The position numbers were made by a program, and so were the translations under genes. Shown one piece after another: positions 3,949-15,710 of a stretch of 21,812 nt of DNA. Position 1 is the stretch's first letter; each line of letters begins with the position of its first letter. Origin of the DNA: a virus; IMG/VR virus record IMGVR_UViG_3300036770_008448, positions 1 to 21,812 of that record. One strand, given 5' to 3'. The notes beneath the pieces were generated by a model that saw only the letters and a list, made by a program, of their open reading frames with translations, did no database searches and had not been told where the DNA came from.

Positions 3949-4434
3949 ATGCCCACTCCCATTGAATTTGTCTTCTCCGAAGAAGAACGGAAGCAAGCGA
4001 TGGAGGAAGGACAACGGCGACAGTCAGTGAACGAAGCAAAAGGACTTCGCGGACGGAATAAGGGCGCGGCTCGTGGCGATCAAGCCCTGTCCATTCATTT
4101 GCTCGGCGCTGCGGGCGAGATGGCCGTAGCCTCGCACCTTGGGCTTAAGCATGAGCTTTACAAGGAAAGCGAAGCCAAGCGTGGTTCAGACGATTTGCCC
4201 GGCATTGATGTGAAGACAAGAAGCAAGCACCAGTACGACTTGATTGTACAAAAGAACGAAAACCCCGAGAAAAAATTTGTACTTGTGACCATTGAAAACC
4301 AAAAGACGCTGCTCCATGGCTGGTGCTACGGGAAAGAGGCGATGGAGGAGAGATTCTGGGCTGATCCTGCGCGAGGCAGGCCAGCTTATTTCATGCCTAA
4401 AGAACATTTGCGACCAATGTCCACCTTGAAATGA
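3949..4434 (+). CDS. PD-(D/E)XK-like nuclease-fold protein next to terminase
   Basis: A 161-residue protein from the ATG at 3949; an in-frame TTG at 3883 would add 22 residues but would overlap the portal start and the promoter. It contains GAAGEMAVASHLGL (E57), then GSDDLPGIDVKTRS (D81/D82, D87, K89) and a beta strand with FVLVTIENQ. Glu in helix 1 followed by D...D-x-K fits the PD-(D/E)XK nuclease-like fold, here G-I-D-V-K-T. A basic segment precedes the core (RGRNKGAARGDQ). It overlaps the terminase start by ATGA (4 nt), so coupled translation and a packaging-linked role are likely, for example DNA end processing or binding. The exact function is not known, and some members of this fold are inactive. 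Confidence 0.7.
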   Translation: MPTPIEFVFSEEERKQAMEEGQRRQSVNEAKGLRGRNKGAARGDQALSIHLLGAAGEMAVASHLGLKHELYKESEAKRGSDDLPGIDVKTRSKHQYDLIVQKNENPEKKFVLVTIENQKTLLHGWCYGKEAMEERFWADPARGRPAYFMPKEHLRPMSTLK

Positions 4435-5813
4435 GCAGCTCTCTCAAGTGCAGCGATTTTGCCAAGCACGTATTAAAACTGGAGCTTTGGCCTGAGCAAA
4501 AGCGCATTCTCGACGGCTACTTCGGTGGCAATAAAACTCACGCCGTATGGGCGCTTGGGCGACGCTGCGGCAAAACGCTTATGGCGGCCATTGCGGCTCT
4601 TTACGCCTGCTTTGTCTTGGAGGATCAATACAGAAGGCGCGTGCGCAAAACTGAAAAATGGTACATCCTTACCATCGCCAACGATCAAAGCCAGGCAAAA
4701 CTTGCCTTGAACAACATTCGCCAGTTGCTCATGGACAGCCCTCTCGTGGATGAAATCACGAGAGAAACTGCCACTGAAATTGAAACAAGCAACAATTGCG
4801 TGTTCCAGGCTATTCCTGCATCGGCCAGGGCCTCCCGTGGTAAAGCCGTGGTCATGCTCATTATGGACGAGCTTTCCTTCGCTATTGAAGGCGACGCTAA
4901 CCGTGGCGCAAAAGCCATTTATGACGCCCTGTCACCGTCCATCGCTCAGTTTGGCCAGCATGGTCGCATTCTTGAGCTGTCTTCTCCATGGCTCACTGAT
5001 GGCCTGTTTTATCAGCACTATTGCGAAGCAAAATCTGGAGAGTTTCCCTTTATGCAGGCAGTAAATCTCCCAACTTGGGAGGTGAATGTCAATTTGCCAT
5101 GGGGATGTGCATTCCTTGATGCCGAGCTAAAGCGTGATCCTGATAAATTTTGGGTGGAGTACGGGGCTCAATTTGCCAAGAACAATTCAGCATTATTGGC
5201 CACTGAAATTGTTGAAGCTGCCATAAATAAAAAGCGAGGAGTATTGTTCCCTGAAAAAGAATTTACTGGCACCTATGTACTTTCTTTGGACCCCGCCCGA
5301 GGTGGCGTGGGACGAGATGATTACACCGCTTGTATTGTTCACTATGAGGGCGAAAGGCTAGTGGTGGACAAGTTTCACGCCTTCGAGCCCGACTTTGAAA
5401 TTGGTGGCAAAAAAGAAGTGAATATGGCAAAAGTAGAAGAGTGGATCAAGGAGCACCATCGCATTTATGAGTTTCAGAGCATTGTTCTCGACCAGTTCAA
5501 TAGCAGCTTTATCATCCAAAATCTTTCCAAGGATTTCCCTATTGCAGAGCTAGCTTGGTCGGTCAGCACAAAAATGAAAGCTTTCAGCAAGATGAAAGAG
5601 CTTTTTAATGCTGGCCTAATTGAACTTTATCCTCATCAAAAAGCAATTACTCAGCTTAAAAATTTGAGCGTTATTTACAGAGCAAGTGGTCAGTGGGCGG
5701 TCACTGGAGGAAAAGAAGTGGGAGTGGACGACTATGCGTTTGCACTTGCAGCAGCTATTCTTGAAGCTTCAAAAGAGAATGACATTGACTGGCTGAATAG
5801 TCTTGTCCGATGA
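4431..5813 (+). CDS. terL: Terminase large subunit
   Basis: A 460-residue packaging motor. The ATPase domain has Walker A GRRCGKT (43-49), Walker B VVMLIMDE (140-147) with the catalytic Glu147, and a coupling SSPW motif (184-187). The C-terminal RNase H-like nuclease has D287 in SLDPARGG, D354 in IVLDQF and D433/D434 in GVDDYAFALAAAI, a complete acidic triad. The protein cuts concatemeric DNA and drives it through the portal using ATP. It starts in an ATGA overlap with the nuclease-fold gene. No small terminase gene was recognised nearby; one of the three small downstream proteins could fill that role, but none shows a clear HTH. Length is usual for the family. Confidence 0.95.
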   Translation: MSSSLKCSDFAKHVLKLELWPEQKRILDGYFGGNKTHAVWALGRRCGKTLMAAIAALYACFVLEDQYRRRVRKTEKWYILTIANDQSQAKLALNNIRQLLMDSPLVDEITRETATEIETSNNCVFQAIPASARASRGKAVVMLIMDELSFAIEGDANRGAKAIYDALSPSIAQFGQHGRILELSSPWLTDGLFYQHYCEAKSGEFPFMQAVNLPTWEVNVNLPWGCAFLDAELKRDPDKFWVEYGAQFAKNNSALLATEIVEAAINKKRGVLFPEKEFTGTYVLSLDPARGGVGRDDYTACIVHYEGERLVVDKFHAFEPDFEIGGKKEVNMAKVEEWIKEHHRIYEFQSIVLDQFNSSFIIQNLSKDFPIAELAWSVSTKMKAFSKMKELFNAGLIELYPHQKAITQLKNLSVIYRASGQWAVTGGKEVGVDDYAFALAAAILEASKENDIDWLNSLVR

Positions 5814-8054: not shown

Positions 8055-8123
8055 GGGCTCCTCCAGGAATCGAACCCGGCATTCTGGGCTATCGGCCCAA
8101 CGTGTATCCAACACTAAAGAGCA
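8055..8123 (-). tRNA. Degenerate tRNA-like gene, anticodon GAT (Ile) if functional
   Basis: On the minus strand: acceptor TGCTCTT (8123-8117) pairs with AGGAGCC (8062-8056) except the first pair; D stem GTGT/ACAC has only a 5-nt loop TGGAT; anticodon stem TTGGG/CCCAG encloses CCGATAG; T stem CCGGG/CCTGG encloses the consensus loop TTCGATT. CCA is not encoded and a T-rich run follows. The C at position 33 (normally T) and the short D loop are abnormal. So it could be a decayed tRNA-Ile(GAU), a divergent phage tRNA or a mimic. Confidence 0.5.
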
Positions 8124-9744: not shown

Positions 9745-11193
9745 TTATTCAGCGCAGCTAGAGCAGAAGCCTGCATCCAAACTGCAAGTAACAACCTCTC
9801 CAGAAGGCTCGCTATCTTCGAGTCCAAATATGCTCTTGAAGTCGTCATCAAGAGCGGCGTAAGCATCGTCCTTTCTTTGCATGTCAGACATGACTTGCAA
9901 GGAATAGTACATGCTTGTCTGAGGAGAGTCTAGCCAATCTTGAAGGAACTCTCGATCGTAAGTAACCAGATCTCCCCATGTGTTCATGGAGTAACCGTGA
10001 AAAAGGCCAGTGGCTTGATACAAACGCACGAGTTCATTCACGACAAGAACGTAAGTGCTCCAGCCAACTTGTTCCGCAATTTCCACTTCCCCATAGTCAA
10101 AACTTTCCACGCCAAAAGTGCCAGAGTCCCTATCAACAAGCCGTCCAATGGGAGGGGCAATTTCAGGGGCAGTTGTAAAGCCTTTCTTATCGATATAGCG
10201 ATAAGAGCAAGATGCTGTGGGAGCAATGCAGAAAGCACGATGCATGCCAGCTTCACGAGCAATCTTTGCCGCTGCCTCAATGCCATTACGAATGGCTGCT
10301 GCAGCCCTGCCAGCAGGCTTCTCGCCCCAATAGTGGCACCATGGATGGGGGTCATCATCGTTCAGGGCTTCCAGGGCCTTCCCGAAGTCTTCGTAAGAAA
10401 TGCCATGGAGGGAAAGGAAGTTGGCAAGACCAAGCATGCCAAGGCCCACTTGCTTGTCAACAGAAGGAGGGAGATATTCGCCCGTATCGCCAACGCCCGT
10501 GCCGCCATGAAGCTCGCACAATTGCTCCATGCCCTCGACAAAAGCCGCTTCTACTTCGTCGATGTCGCAAGCACCCATGTTGACGTGCTGAAGAAGGCAA
10601 GTGCCACGGTGAGGAAGATAAACTTCAAGGCAGACATTGGCACGGATGCGCTTTCCTTCTTGATCGTACCGAATTTTGTTAAGCCAGATGTCGCCAGAAG
10701 CAATGCCTTTTAGCAGCTCATCAATAAGCTCTTGAGAAGAGTTCTCAATAAACTGTTCATCCACATTCACACACCTCTTCACCCATGGAAGCTCTTGACG
10801 AGAAGCTTTGATGAAATCAAGAATGTCAGGATGCGAATAGTCAAGATGAAGCACTACGGCCCCATTTTTATAGCGTCCGCCTCTGCGAAGAATTTCATTG
10901 AGCGTGGAATAAATTTTGCCGAAGCTAATGGGACCACTTGCAACAAGGCCTTTTCCATTTTCATCGCCTTTGCCACGCAGCTCAGACAAATGCACTGCTA
11001 CGCCTGCACCATTGCGCAGGCCATGAGAAACAAAACGCCACGATGCTTCAATGCCATTTTCCCCCTCCATTGAATCATCCACGACGAAGACCGTGCAGCT
11101 TACGGGCAGTCTTCCGTCTGCTTCGTCAAGCCAGCTTTGCACACGACCGGTGCGAGCAATCTTTTCACACTTCGCCTGTTCCTTGAGCTTCAT
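9745..11193 (-). CDS. nrdA: Ribonucleotide reductase large (alpha) subunit, short class I-like
   Basis: 482 residues. Catalytic residues are all present: C33 in LPVSCTVF and C199 in GTCLLQHVNMG (redox pair), and N186-x-C188-x-E190 (thiyl radical Cys188). PTASCSYRY lies in the barrel, a TSMYYSLQV segment provides the Tyr-Tyr dyad of class I radical transfer, and the tail ends FCSSCAE, the shuttle cysteines reduced by thioredoxin-type donors. The N-terminal ATP cone is missing, and the protein is far shorter than NrdA (about 760). The Tyr dyad and adjacent beta gene argue for class I rather than the B12-dependent class II to which such short phage enzymes have been assigned. A terminator hairpin (11201-11220) precedes the start, so it likely has its own promoter. 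Confidence 0.88.
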   Translation of the reverse strand: MKLKEQAKCEKIARTGRVQSWLDEADGRLPVSCTVFVVDDSMEGENGIEASWRFVSHGLRNGAGVAVHLSELRGKGDENGKGLVASGPISFGKIYSTLNEILRRGGRYKNGAVVLHLDYSHPDILDFIKASRQELPWVKRCVNVDEQFIENSSQELIDELLKGIASGDIWLNKIRYDQEGKRIRANVCLEVYLPHRGTCLLQHVNMGACDIDEVEAAFVEGMEQLCELHGGTGVGDTGEYLPPSVDKQVGLGMLGLANFLSLHGISYEDFGKALEALNDDDPHPWCHYWGEKPAGRAAAAIRNGIEAAAKIAREAGMHRAFCIAPTASCSYRYIDKKGFTTAPEIAPPIGRLVDRDSGTFGVESFDYGEVEIAEQVGWSTYVLVVNELVRLYQATGLFHGYSMNTWGDLVTYDREFLQDWLDSPQTSMYYSLQVMSDMQRKDDAYAALDDDFKSIFGLEDSEPSGEVVTCSLDAGFCSSCAE

Positions 11194-11544: not shown

Positions 11545-12510
11545 GTGTACATCGCTCTTCTCTTCTCTGGTCATAGGCGTTCTTTCTTTAAGCATGTGGG
11601 ACGATGGAGAGAAATGATAAAAGAGCTGGAAGACGGAGGAGCTGTTGTTAATTGCTTCTTCCATTCATGGACTGTTGATTGTCATGCTGAGATGAAGGGC
11701 AATCGACGCATTGAAGGCTCCTATGTGAAAAGCCCGTTAGAAGACAAAGAGGGCATGATAGCGGCATTGCCGTTTCGCAATTATTTCTTTGAGGACGAAG
11801 AAGAGCAAGAGGCCTTTTTACAGCTTCCCGAAAGAGCATTTCTCTTGGACAAGCAAGCAGCGAAGAAGCACATTGGCATGCAACTCTATTCAATGCAGCG
11901 CAGCTACGAAGCAATGCTTCAATGGGAAAAGGAAAATAATATTGAGCACGATACTATCGTTAAACTTCGTTTCGACATTTTTCCTGCCAGATGGAACGTT
12001 CGGGAATTTTTTCTCTCCACTGACCATCGTTTCCAAAATTTATTGATTGCTGCAAACGAAAAGGCTCATCCCCACCCTGGCGGAGGCGGTGGCTGTCTTC
12101 AATGTGATCGCTTGCATGCTGAATGGTGGGAAGATCAATGGGAAGGAAAAAAGGAAGGGCCAGAGCCCACCACTGAATTGTGGCTGCATGAAGGCGCTCA
12201 CTCAAACGACATTTGCGACCTTTATGCCATTGGCAACAGAAAAACAATGGCTCGCTATATGACTGTCTATAGCAGAGCTGTTGAACTATATTCGCCAGAT
12301 CTTTTTGAGCGCTCTTATTACTATTGGCACAATGAAAAAAGAAAAGGAGCAATTGCTTGCTCCCATGACAGTGCTGATTTGAGAATTGCAGCATCAGGAA
12401 AGGAAATGGAAGACGAGCGCATTGCTTGCTTCTACCCTGAACGACTACAGCGTCTTAATTTAGAAGGTTTTGCAGTGTTGCATGCTGCTTCTGTTTTTTA
12501 TCGAGACTAA
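11545..12510 (+). CDS. Glycosyltransferase-like protein (SGHxR / FHSW type)
   Basis: 321 residues from GTG 11545; TTG 11539 would add two. It opens YIALLFSGHRRSFFKHVGRW and then VNCFFHSWTVD, the pattern of a poorly described family of polysaccharide-cluster proteins (usually SGQxR near the N terminus, FIHTW, then YSM..S and IVKLRFDI). Here YSMQRSYEAM and HDTIVKLRFDI occur at about 112-145. The fold is expected to be GT-A-like, with the R-x-D segment near the nucleotide-sugar site. A His/Gly-rich loop (HPHPGGGGGC) is unusual. It is the only plus-strand gene in an otherwise minus-strand block, AT-richer at its start, and ends in a 3-bp overlap with the convergent gene; it may be a late acquisition. 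Function inferred. Confidence 0.6.
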   Translation: MYIALLFSGHRRSFFKHVGRWREMIKELEDGGAVVNCFFHSWTVDCHAEMKGNRRIEGSYVKSPLEDKEGMIAALPFRNYFFEDEEEQEAFLQLPERAFLLDKQAAKKHIGMQLYSMQRSYEAMLQWEKENNIEHDTIVKLRFDIFPARWNVREFFLSTDHRFQNLLIAANEKAHPHPGGGGGCLQCDRLHAEWWEDQWEGKKEGPEPTTELWLHEGAHSNDICDLYAIGNRKTMARYMTVYSRAVELYSPDLFERSYYYWHNEKRKGAIACSHDSADLRIAASGKEMEDERIACFYPERLQRLNLEGFAVLHAASVFYRD

Positions 12511-12917
12511 TCAAGAACACTGGGCTTGACATAGGAAGCAAAGCGTTCTTCTAGGAAGTCGATGATAGTACCAGCGAAGCCTTCTTCAATAAATTCTTCC
12601 TTGAGCCAAAGAAATACAAGCCCCATGATGATTTCCGTAGTTTCGCAGGCATTAGTGGCAGGGTGTTCAATAGTGGCAAACACCCTGTCGAAAATGGTGG
12701 TCTCTTCAGCGGCGTTTTCTTTTTCTTGATCGCGCATGGCGGCAAGGTAGCCAAAGGCAGCAGCAGTGGCCATGTCTTTACAAATGGAAAAGCCTTTAAA
12801 GCGCTTCTTCAGGGCAGGAAGCTCTGAGCTGCTTGTGTGGTCCATGGCAAGAGCGAACAGTTCTTCGTCGAAGGGCACGGTGATCACCAGTCGGGGAGGG
12901 AGCCCCGATGGTTTCAC
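12507..12917 (-). CDS. Unknown protein, 136 aa, GTG start
   Basis: The preferred start is the GTG at 12917, which overlaps the TGA of the gene before it (GTGA). A second GTG (12887) lies in a duplicated copy of the same sequence context. The product reads LVITVPFDEELFALAMDHTS, then KGFSICKDMATAAAFGYLAAM and a long acidic helical C-terminal half ending FLEERFASYVKPSVLD. It is soluble, acidic and helical. No family recognised. Confidence 0.65.
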   Translation of the reverse strand: MKPSGLPPRLVITVPFDEELFALAMDHTSSSELPALKKRFKGFSICKDMATAAAFGYLAAMRDQEKENAAEETTIFDRVFATIEHPATNACETTEIIMGLVFLWLKEEFIEEGFAGTIIDFLEERFASYVKPSVLD

Positions 12918-12925
12918 CAGTCGGG
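12884..12925. repeat. 12-bp direct repeat at a start/stop junction
   Basis: TCACCAGTCGGG occurs at 12884-12895 and again at 12914-12925, exactly 30 bp apart, each followed by a GGAG-type purine stretch. On the minus strand each copy reads CCCGACTGGTGA, so the GTGA start/stop overlap of the neighbouring genes is duplicated. Confidence 0.7.
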
Positions 12926-13156
12926 ATAGGAGCAGGGTAGCTGGTCTTCGCCTTTTGTCAACTGCCAGTTCATTAAGTCCATTTGATGCCCGTGGTTACG
13001 GGCTAGCAGTCCTGAGCGGTAAAAGCTGGTCTTTTCTGGCTTGATGGCTTTCTCAAGCTCTCTTACTGCTTTGTTCCAAGAGCGCTCAGAAGGCACATAC
13101 ACCCTCCATAGTTCCGTCACTTCTACATAGTCGCAACGACTGTCCGTGTAAGCCAT
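12914..13156 (-). CDS. Small protein, 80 aa
   Basis: ATG at 13156, preceded by a pyrimidine-rich TTTCCTTTCTGCC instead of a Shine-Dalgarno site. It opens MAYTDSRCDYVEVTELWRVY, then has a basic helix (ERSWNKAVRELEKAIKPEK) and ends GEDQLPCSYPDW. Translationally coupled to the 136-residue protein by the GTGA overlap. Function unknown. Confidence 0.6.
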   Translation of the reverse strand: MAYTDSRCDYVEVTELWRVYVPSERSWNKAVRELEKAIKPEKTSFYRSGLLARNHGHQMDLMNWQLTKGEDQLPCSYPDW

Positions 13157-13208
13157 GGCAGAAAGGAAATCATGCTAACCGAAGCAATTATTGTTTTAAT
13201 TTGCTCAT

Positions 13209-13230
13209 AAAAGCCAGTTTGTTAACTGGC
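13209..13230 (-). terminator. Hairpin with T-run, minus strand
   Basis: Stem GCCAGTT / AACTGGC with a 4-nt loop (13213-13230), followed on the minus strand by TTTTAT. It lies upstream of the gene starting at 13156 and would stop minus transcripts from the structured region to the right. Confidence 0.5.
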
Positions 13231-13260
13231 ACAATCATCAAGAATCAAGCTATGACTACA

Positions 13261-13294
13261 GTCTCATTATGAGACAGCTTGAGACTCATGAGAT
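13261..13294. promoter_or_regulatory. TGAGAC operator array 1
   Basis: A palindrome GTCTCAT-T-ATGAGAC (13261-13275) is followed by further direct copies, TGAGAC at 13280 and TGAGAT at 13289. Copies begin at 13270, 13280 and 13289, about one helical turn apart. The start of the small plus-strand ORF lies inside the array. This is typical of cooperative repressor or initiator binding. Confidence 0.6.
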
Positions 13295-13467
13295 TAGCCT
13301 GTACACTGTATATAGGCGCAGCGTATTCCACTGACAAGCAACGCATCTACGAACGTTTGTCACGAGCAGTTAAGCTTCCTTCGCCTGAGCCGCTTCGAGC
13401 GGGAGCCCAAAGCGACCTTTTCATAGCGGCTCTTCTCAACAACCCTCCTCTCGACTGCTTCTTTTAA
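13288..13467 (+). CDS. Possible small protein flanked by operator arrays, 59 aa
   Basis: ATG at 13288 within operator array 1, to TAA at 13465-13467. The readable part is TDKQRIYERLSRAVKLPSP, then LRAGAQSDLFIAALLNNPPL, basic and helical. It lies between two copies of the TGAGAC array, so it could be an autoregulator, but no HTH or ribbon-helix-helix is clear. No other frame competes strongly here. Could also be spurious. Confidence 0.35.
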   Translation: MRLACTLYIGAAYSTDKQRIYERLSRAVKLPSPEPLRAGAQSDLFIAALLNNPPLDCFF

Positions 13468-13480
13468 GAAACCTTCGCTA

Positions 13481-13529
13481 GGAGCCCGTTACGAGCATTA
13501 GCCCCCAAGGCGTACGATCCTAGGGCTCC
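13481..13529. other. Structured hairpin, non-coding
   Basis: GGAGCCC (13481-13487) pairs with GGGCTCC (13523-13529); the interior contains a further TACG/CGTA pairing. There is no T-run, so it is not an ordinary terminator. It is part of the gene-free stretch 13468-13772. Confidence 0.4.
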
Positions 13530-13605
13530 CTCCCTGCCACCTTCCTTTCAACCATTTCTTTTCTGACAGTAGTTTGATCGCCCATGGTGTGCGCAGCTAC
13601 CGCCA

Positions 13606-13641
13606 GTCTCATTTAAGACTAGTTTGAGACAATATTGAGAC
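13606..13641. promoter_or_regulatory. TGAGAC operator array 2
   Basis: GTCTCA (13606-13611) followed by TAAGAC (13614), TGAGAC (13625) and TGAGAC (13636), with exact 11-bp spacing. Order and orientation match array 1 about 345 bp away, so this is a diverged duplicate. Confidence 0.6.
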
Positions 13642-13642
13642 T

Positions 13643-13700
13643 AAAGAAGGGGCACGAACAACGCCGCTTGGGGCGGCTCCTTAACATAGGCCCCTTCTTT
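13643..13700. other. Large inverted repeat with nested hairpin
   Basis: A perfect 11-bp inverted repeat, AAAGAAGGGGC (13643-13653) and GCCCCTTCTTT (13690-13700), encloses a second hairpin GCCGC / GCGGC (13663-13677, 5-nt loop). It directly abuts operator array 2. It could fold as a Y-shaped RNA or DNA cruciform. After it (13700-13750) come two related GCAC/GAACRATT blocks including a repeated ACAATCTTA. No gene is seen from 13468 to 13772. Confidence 0.6.
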
Positions 13701-13772
13701 GCACAATCTTATGTTTGAGAACGATTGCACGTTCGGGAACAATCTTAGTGCGCTCACTCCCTTTCGCAAGCT

Positions 13773-14066
13773 TTAGATCGTTCGCGCAGTGCGCACTAGC
13801 TTTCGGGCCATGGAAAATAAACGAAAAGAATGTAGCGCGGTGAGCAAAAGCAAAAAAAGTCGTTTGAAAATTACGTCGCTTTTAACGGGGGTAACCCCGC
13901 CCCAATCCACGCCCATACCACCCGCTACTGCTCTGTGTCTGTATCCGTTGCTACAGTTTGGCGGATTGGTTTGATCAGGAATGGTGATGAGTCGTTCGCA
14001 ATAGTCGCTGTTGTTGAGAATTTCCCCTACAAGCCCCAGGAACACCGATCTTTCCTGGGGCCCCAT
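13773..14066 (-). CDS. Unknown protein, 97 aa, possibly membrane-associated at C terminus
   Basis: ATG at 14066 with GGGGAAAG just upstream, one of the few purine-rich leaders in the window. It opens MGPQERSVFLGLVGEILNNS and ends with a hydrophobic then basic segment, KRLFLLLLTALHSFRLFSMA followed by RKLVRTARTI. A strong 10-bp hairpin (14033-14061) lies directly after the start codon. It follows the DUF7227-like gene by 14 nt. The hydrophobic C terminus may be a membrane segment. A plus-strand ORF (13789-13974) competes, but is less protein-like. Confidence 0.4.
   Translation of the reverse strand: MGPQERSVFLGLVGEILNNSDYCERLITIPDQTNPPNCSNGYRHRAVAGGMGVDWGGVTPVKSDVIFKRLFLLLLTALHSFRLFSMARKLVRTARTI
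14033..14061. other. 10-bp perfect hairpin at the start of the 97-aa ORF
   Basis: GCCCCAGGAA (14033-14042) pairs perfectly with TTCCTGGGGC (14052-14061), with a 9-nt loop. On the minus strand it begins a few bases after the ATG at 14066. No T-run; translation control or processing is possible. Confidence 0.5.
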
Positions 14067-14080
14067 CTTTCCCCGTAGCG

Positions 14081-15601: not shown

Positions 15602-15710
15602 TAGATACCAAGCGAGCCGGACCCTAGATACCGAGCGAGCCGGACCCTTTTAGACTGCGAGCCGGGTCTTTTAGGCTCGCAGCCGGATCTTTTAAAACCA
15701 TAGCCGGACC
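15602..15710. repeat. Five iterons with AGCCGG core (origin-like)
   Basis: AGCCGG occurs at 15615, 15638, 15660, 15681 and 15702, spaced 23, 22, 21 and 21 bp, all in the same orientation. The first two units share GATACCRAGCGAGCCGGACC; later ones diverge but keep AGCCGGRYC and a TTTTA segment before it. Direct repeats of about 22 bp are the standard form of iterons that bind plasmid or phage replication initiators. The array ends 10 bp before the stop of the small gene at 15720. Confidence 0.75.

Follow-up and report, generated by a model that had tools for sequence, protein, structure and literature searches.

The window, the whole stretch of 21,812 bp that was analysed, is IMG/VR virus record IMGVR_UViG_3300036770_008448, a piece of a Synechococcus siphophage of the S-CBS4 kind. 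The portal protein that it encodes shares 64% identity with its counterpart in Synechococcus phage S-CBS4, and genes for terminase, portal and ribonucleotide reductase (RNR) are recognisable. Two TGAGAC arrays lie inside a non-coding gap (13157..14080, no strand assigned to the gap or to either array), an intergenic control region and candidate replication origin, with a DUF7227 gene on one side and p80, p136 and RNR on the other. The DUF7227 gene, p80 (12914..13156) and p136 (12507..12914) are all on the minus strand; the RNR large-subunit-like gene (9745..11193) is the next on that strand, past an opposite-strand ORF. No family match was obtained for p80, the first gene downstream of array 1, and p136, the gene linked to the arrays, gives an all-helical model of low confidence. 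The terL gene (4431-5813) lies about 7.5 kb from the arrays on the strand opposite to the array-side genes. An Rfam search of the gap and a DNA search against cultured phages returned no match. Elsewhere in the window, a tRNA-Ile (GAT) is predicted at 8055-8122 on the minus strand, and the early region contains two overlapping tandem repeats of 21-23 bp (15602-15694). The RNR start codon stands in the context GTCTTATG in the window and L002, and in the context GTCTCATG, after a GC-rich hairpin, in L013, L017, L020, L045, L049, L051, L094, L100 and L124.

Array 1 (13261..13294) reads GTCTCA-N3-TGAGAC-N4-TGAGAC-N3-TGAGAT, with GTCTCA at 13261, TGAGAC at 13270 and 13280, and TGAGAT, which has one mismatch, at 13289, so that the steps are 9, 10 and 9 bp. 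Array 2 (13606..13641) reads GTCTCA-N2-TAAGAC-N5-TGAGAC-N5-TGAGAC, with GTCTCA at 13606, the one-mismatch site TAAGAC at 13614, and TGAGAC at 13625 and 13636, in steps of 8, 11 and 11 bp. From start to start the arrays are 345 bp apart. The sequence-only reading had described two arrays about 345 bp apart, each of a GTCTCA and three TGAGAC-type sites, and both were found at the positions and spacings that it gave. The single site is a hexamer, often half of the near-palindrome TGAGWCTCA. Counted over the entire window, TGAGAC shows no enrichment (11 observed versus 8.8 expected; at least 11 in 27 of 100 shuffles), and 6 of the 11 copies sit within the two arrays. A motif scan of the window thus shows TGAGAC to be clustered and phased, not evenly frequent and unphased. 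The window holds two three-site clusters, whereas none of 2000 dinucleotide-preserving shuffles held even one, and no hexamer other than GTCTCA/TGAGAC forms two of these clusters in the window.

The arrays had also been said to bracket a small ORF and a structured non-coding region, and neither part of this description was supported. The ORF looks non-coding and was rejected as a gene, as its alignment with L004 is broken by many gaps and its codon changes are 20 non-synonymous versus 3 synonymous. The case for a structured RNA between the arrays is weak, because the folding z-scores of -1.1 and -1.3 are nothing unusual and the covariation term is positive. Beside array 2, a long and unusually stable hairpin AAAGAAGGGGC..GCCCCTTCTTT (13643..13700, minus strand; z of -3.9) abuts the array and is kept in relatives; it is a possible terminator of the DUF7227 side. 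An inverted repeat GCCAGTTAACAAACTGGC (13213..13230, minus strand), conserved as GCCARTTAAYAAACTGGC, lies between array 1 and p80 and appears terminator-like or operator-like. Inspection of aligned sequences also revealed a conserved gap core (GGGGCGGGG..ACCCC box and GAGCAGTAGCGG; 13858..14010, minus strand), which in relatives comes after DnaA boxes and a TTGACA-type promoter.

The TGAGAC arrays are a genuine, conserved element, kept in related genomes. Both are present in the sister genomes L051 and L493, with array 1 found in L051/L492 and L493, and array 2 in L002, L004, L051, L100, L493, L497 and L500. In L002 and L004, which have array 2, the slot of array 1 is occupied by a T5orf172-like gene of the winged-helix group, and a gene of this type fills the slot at several loci without array 1; the 215-aa gene is perhaps mobile. 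In more distant relatives, a homologue of array 1 stands upstream of p80 or p136 and follows the scheme GTCTCA-TGAGAC-N5-TGAGAC-N5-TGAGAC-N3-AGTYATAG. Array 1 of the window is of equal length and aligns with this version without gaps, its middle site being on the other strand. Together with its flank it makes up a 47-bp composite element (13249..13295, minus strand) that has the length and register of the relatives' array upstream of p80/p136 and ends in AGTYATAG, the window's copy of which is AGTCATAG (13250-13257, minus strand). The promoter-proximal TRAGAC and AGTYATAG are retained in almost every one of 14 distinct sequences, and mean pairwise identity is 0.78 in the hexamer columns versus 0.52 in the spacer columns.

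In the relatives, the array stands at a fixed place in front of the operon, its distance to the downstream gene being about 65-110 bp for p80 and, in the absence of p80, about 190 bp for p136. Arrays also occur in six other records, which are 33-74 kb long and have them at a single locus only, although shared descent among the relatives means that genome counts overstate independence. Within the gap, the position of the arrays shifts among three sites across genomes. No TGAGAC arrays are present in S-CBS4, G017 or G005. In L504/L100 and L031/L039 there are several TGAGAC clusters per gap, some of them beside another small gene that precedes p80.

When the genes of the array-bearing genome G030 were compared, the p136 family was found in G001, G031, G032, G034 and the window and was absent from G017 and S-CBS4; a few other G030 ORFs partly match this pattern. 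The array itself had led to several of the relatives, so the search was repeated with the p136 protein as the sole query. This gave 32 loci, including near-duplicates and records already in the comparison set, and arrays were present upstream of p136 in 22 of the 31 with usable upstream sequence (18 strict, 4 relaxed). Downstream of p136, no array occurred in 95 kb at the same loci. A p136 homologue was not found in L017, L020, L023 and L025, and the sites there adjoin DnaA boxes. As a candidate binder of the arrays p136 itself was rejected, since its helical model is weak and no PDB match had an E value below 3, and no cognate regulator was identified among the phage genes examined. A promoter test at array 1 showed that AGTYATAG is conserved, and no good sigma-70 or consensus promoter was found there on the operon strand.

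Phased, conserved and confined to one locus in a control region, the sites argue for cooperative protein binding. Binding on one face of the DNA, as the sequence-only reading had proposed, is supported by the 11-bp spacing kept across relatives, as well as by the stronger conservation of hexamers than of spacers, the single-locus occurrence and the upstream-only placement at p136. Judged from the sequences, the arrays are most likely a protein-docking site of this group of cyanobacterial viruses. The reading that we favour, and to which we give an even chance, is that they are cooperative sites for a putative phage-coded sequence-specific DNA-binding protein, where array 1 most likely controls the p80-p136 operon and array 2 is probably an upstream control site. 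Adjacent sites about one helical turn apart would align the bound subunits on one face. Array 1 would govern transcription of p80-p136, with the promoter-proximal TGAGAC at a fixed distance from AGTYATAG, and its effect could be activation or repression. Array 2, next to the strong hairpin, would probably act as an upstream control site for a transcript crossing the gap, and looping may perhaps join it to array 1; both the binding and the looping are what we infer for the arrays.

The gap of the relatives also bears hallmarks of an origin. The cyanobacterial DnaA box consensus is TTTTCCACA (PMC4674748). Between DUF7227 and RNR, 29 relatives, several of them close kin of each other, together have 23 boxes of the form TTTTCCACA or TTATCCACA, versus 0 in the other 180 kb. 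The window's own gap contains no DnaA box, exact or with one mismatch. An inverted pair of DnaA boxes is followed directly by 1-4 copies of TTTGAGACTCA in L017, L018, L023 and L025, an imperfect DnaA-like pair directly precedes 3 copies of TTTGAGACTCA in L020, and the boxes are in tandem in L004 and L094. Lone TGAGAC sites about 38-67 bp apart occur downstream of the DnaA pair in L020 (5270-5502) and L017 (5073-5305). The detrended GC-skew minimum falls in the gap or the equivalent junction in five of six near-complete genomes, namely in the gap of G030, G017, G031 and G032 (the limits of the last two gaps being approximate) and, for S-CBS4, at the record junction that corresponds to it. In G001 the minimum is elsewhere, but the skew changes sign at the gap. 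No AT-rich unwinding element was found, and the AT content of the array region (±600 bp) is close to the genome average. In L037 (3904-4105; G001 43904-44105), about 200 bp of AT-rich sequence with repeats of about 10 bp (GAAATGTTAA), a possible unwinding element, lies about 2 kb from the arrays. We found no open paper reporting DnaA boxes at a cyanophage origin. The gap is the main control region of the phage and probably also its replication origin.

The arrays could accordingly be initiator iterons of a phage origin, a possibility that we hold tentatively, in which a phage initiator would bind the phased repeats, alongside host DnaA in genomes that have boxes, and would open the origin. The confinement of all 23 boxes to the gap and the position of the skew minimum agree with such a role, as do the copies of TTTGAGACTCA that come right after a DnaA or DnaA-like pair in five relatives and the two arrays of an unrelated contig, L116, each with a TTATCCACA, around an AT-rich stretch by a primase-helicase gene. 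However, G017 and S-CBS4 have the skew minimum without the arrays, the gap of the window has no DnaA box and is not AT-rich, and the arrays occupy three different places within the gap. The gene for the primase-helicase (Toprim + AAA_25; G001 56785-58764) is moreover about 15 kb away and is also present in the array-less S-CBS4. The skew and DnaA evidence counts against operon control insofar as it is equally compatible with a replication role of the gap. The weak p136 model, the failure to find a good promoter at array 1 and the sites beside DnaA boxes in L017, L020, L023 and L025, where no p136 homologue turned up, also weigh against the favoured reading. We nevertheless rate control of the p80-p136 operon somewhat above initiator binding, on the strength of the constant register with AGTYATAG, the linkage to p136 and the retention of the skew minimum by relatives without arrays. 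One role does not exclude the other, and the repressor switch and the initiator-binding region suggested earlier may each still apply, as array 1 precedes an operon and the relatives' gap carries origin hallmarks.

Similar arrays occur in other viruses and in bacteria. TGAGAC-N5-TGAGAC-N5-TGAGAC was found in 98 stretches in IMG/VR. Among non-redundant viral matches with diverged spacers, TGAGAC at 11 bp gave 20 (13 non-coding), versus 5 (0 non-coding) for TGAGAC at 12 bp, 3 (1 non-coding) for the control hexamer CAGAGT and 6 (3 non-coding) for TGACGA. The excess of 11-bp TGAGAC arrays across viruses is real and modest in number. An inverted GTCTCA at most 14 bp before the first site accompanies 3 of 51 non-redundant viral arrays and 6 of 96 bacterial arrays among the matches listed, and it never follows the last site in either group. 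Genes near the viral arrays include those for terminases from several families, primase-helicases, integrases and a tail sheath, and the bacterial arrays among the matches listed have no common neighbour. Two inverted arrays in L116 (2240-2650), each a TTATCCACA plus three TGAGAC, flank the AT-rich stretch and adjoin a Toprim/DUF5906/D5 primase-helicase, and this region looks like a compact replication origin. No paper tying TGAGAC to phage or plasmid iterons was found. The virus-wide pattern gives a lead and falls short of demonstrating a system. We consider it rather unlikely that the head-inverted, 11-bp-phased array represents a docking element that is widespread and so far undescribed, used by one or by convergent protein families at control or replication regions of many unrelated phages and some bacteria, of which the cyanosiphophages would have a version at a DnaA-assisted origin.

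Host regulators are commonly recruited by phage promoters, and OmpR/PhoB-type response regulators recognise directly repeated sites with a spacing of about 11 bp. This likeness in spacing and the presence of 11-bp arrays in bacterial genomes would suit a binding site for a host transcription factor, but that is very unlikely, as neither of the two cyanobacterial matches among those listed passed the spacer-divergence filter, and linkage to one phage gene family, p136, better fits a phage factor. A packaging site (cos or pac) for the small terminase subunit is suggested by the 11-bp TGAGAC arrays that are often near terminase genes of several families in other viruses. We set it aside as highly improbable because the orientation of the arrays relative to terminase is, on inspection, inconsistent among viruses and some arrays are instead near integrase, primase or tail-sheath genes; the window's terminase is also distant and on the other strand, and the same terminase and portal are found in relatives without arrays. 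That the arrays are due to chance or are a functionless minisatellite is scarcely credible, even with an 11-bp unit that varies from 1 to 4 copies across L017-L025, since the hexamers stay while the spacers diverge, the register with AGTYATAG is conserved and no shuffle reproduced a cluster.

The analysis locates, in cyanosiphophages, a region whose roles in replication and control can be tested, and ties the array sequence to the uncharacterised p136 gene family, a neighbour of ribonucleotide reductase. The arrays also offer a specific bait sequence for the putative phage DNA-binding protein.

Several known systems resemble the arrays in part. Cooperative operators with sites one helical turn apart are bound by ribbon-helix-helix proteins of the Arc/MetJ type and occur as OmpR/PhoB-type boxes. 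The arrays share with them hexamers about 11 bp apart, the near-palindromic TGAGWCTCA and a location before a small operon, and they differ in sequence and in the leading inverted site. Iteron origins with DnaA boxes are known from theta plasmids and from phage P4, whose ori/crr is used with the alpha primase-helicase, and their usual unit is 17-22 bp. Short direct and inverted repeats in a non-coding control region are common to both, as are DnaA boxes, here in the relatives; directly repeated phased sites are present in the non-coding region of the window, where an initiator role is a candidate one. In contrast, the unit here is 11 bp, the gap is without an AT-rich stretch or an adjoining initiator gene, and the window has no DnaA box. 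The parC centromeres consist of 11-bp repeats bound by ParR and are similar in their tandem direct 11-bp units, but parM/parR genes were not recognised in the genome parts scanned here. Synechococcus phage S-CBS4 has homologues of the portal, terminase, RNR and replication genes and a skew minimum at the equivalent place, and it differs from the array-bearing phages in having neither TGAGAC arrays nor p136.
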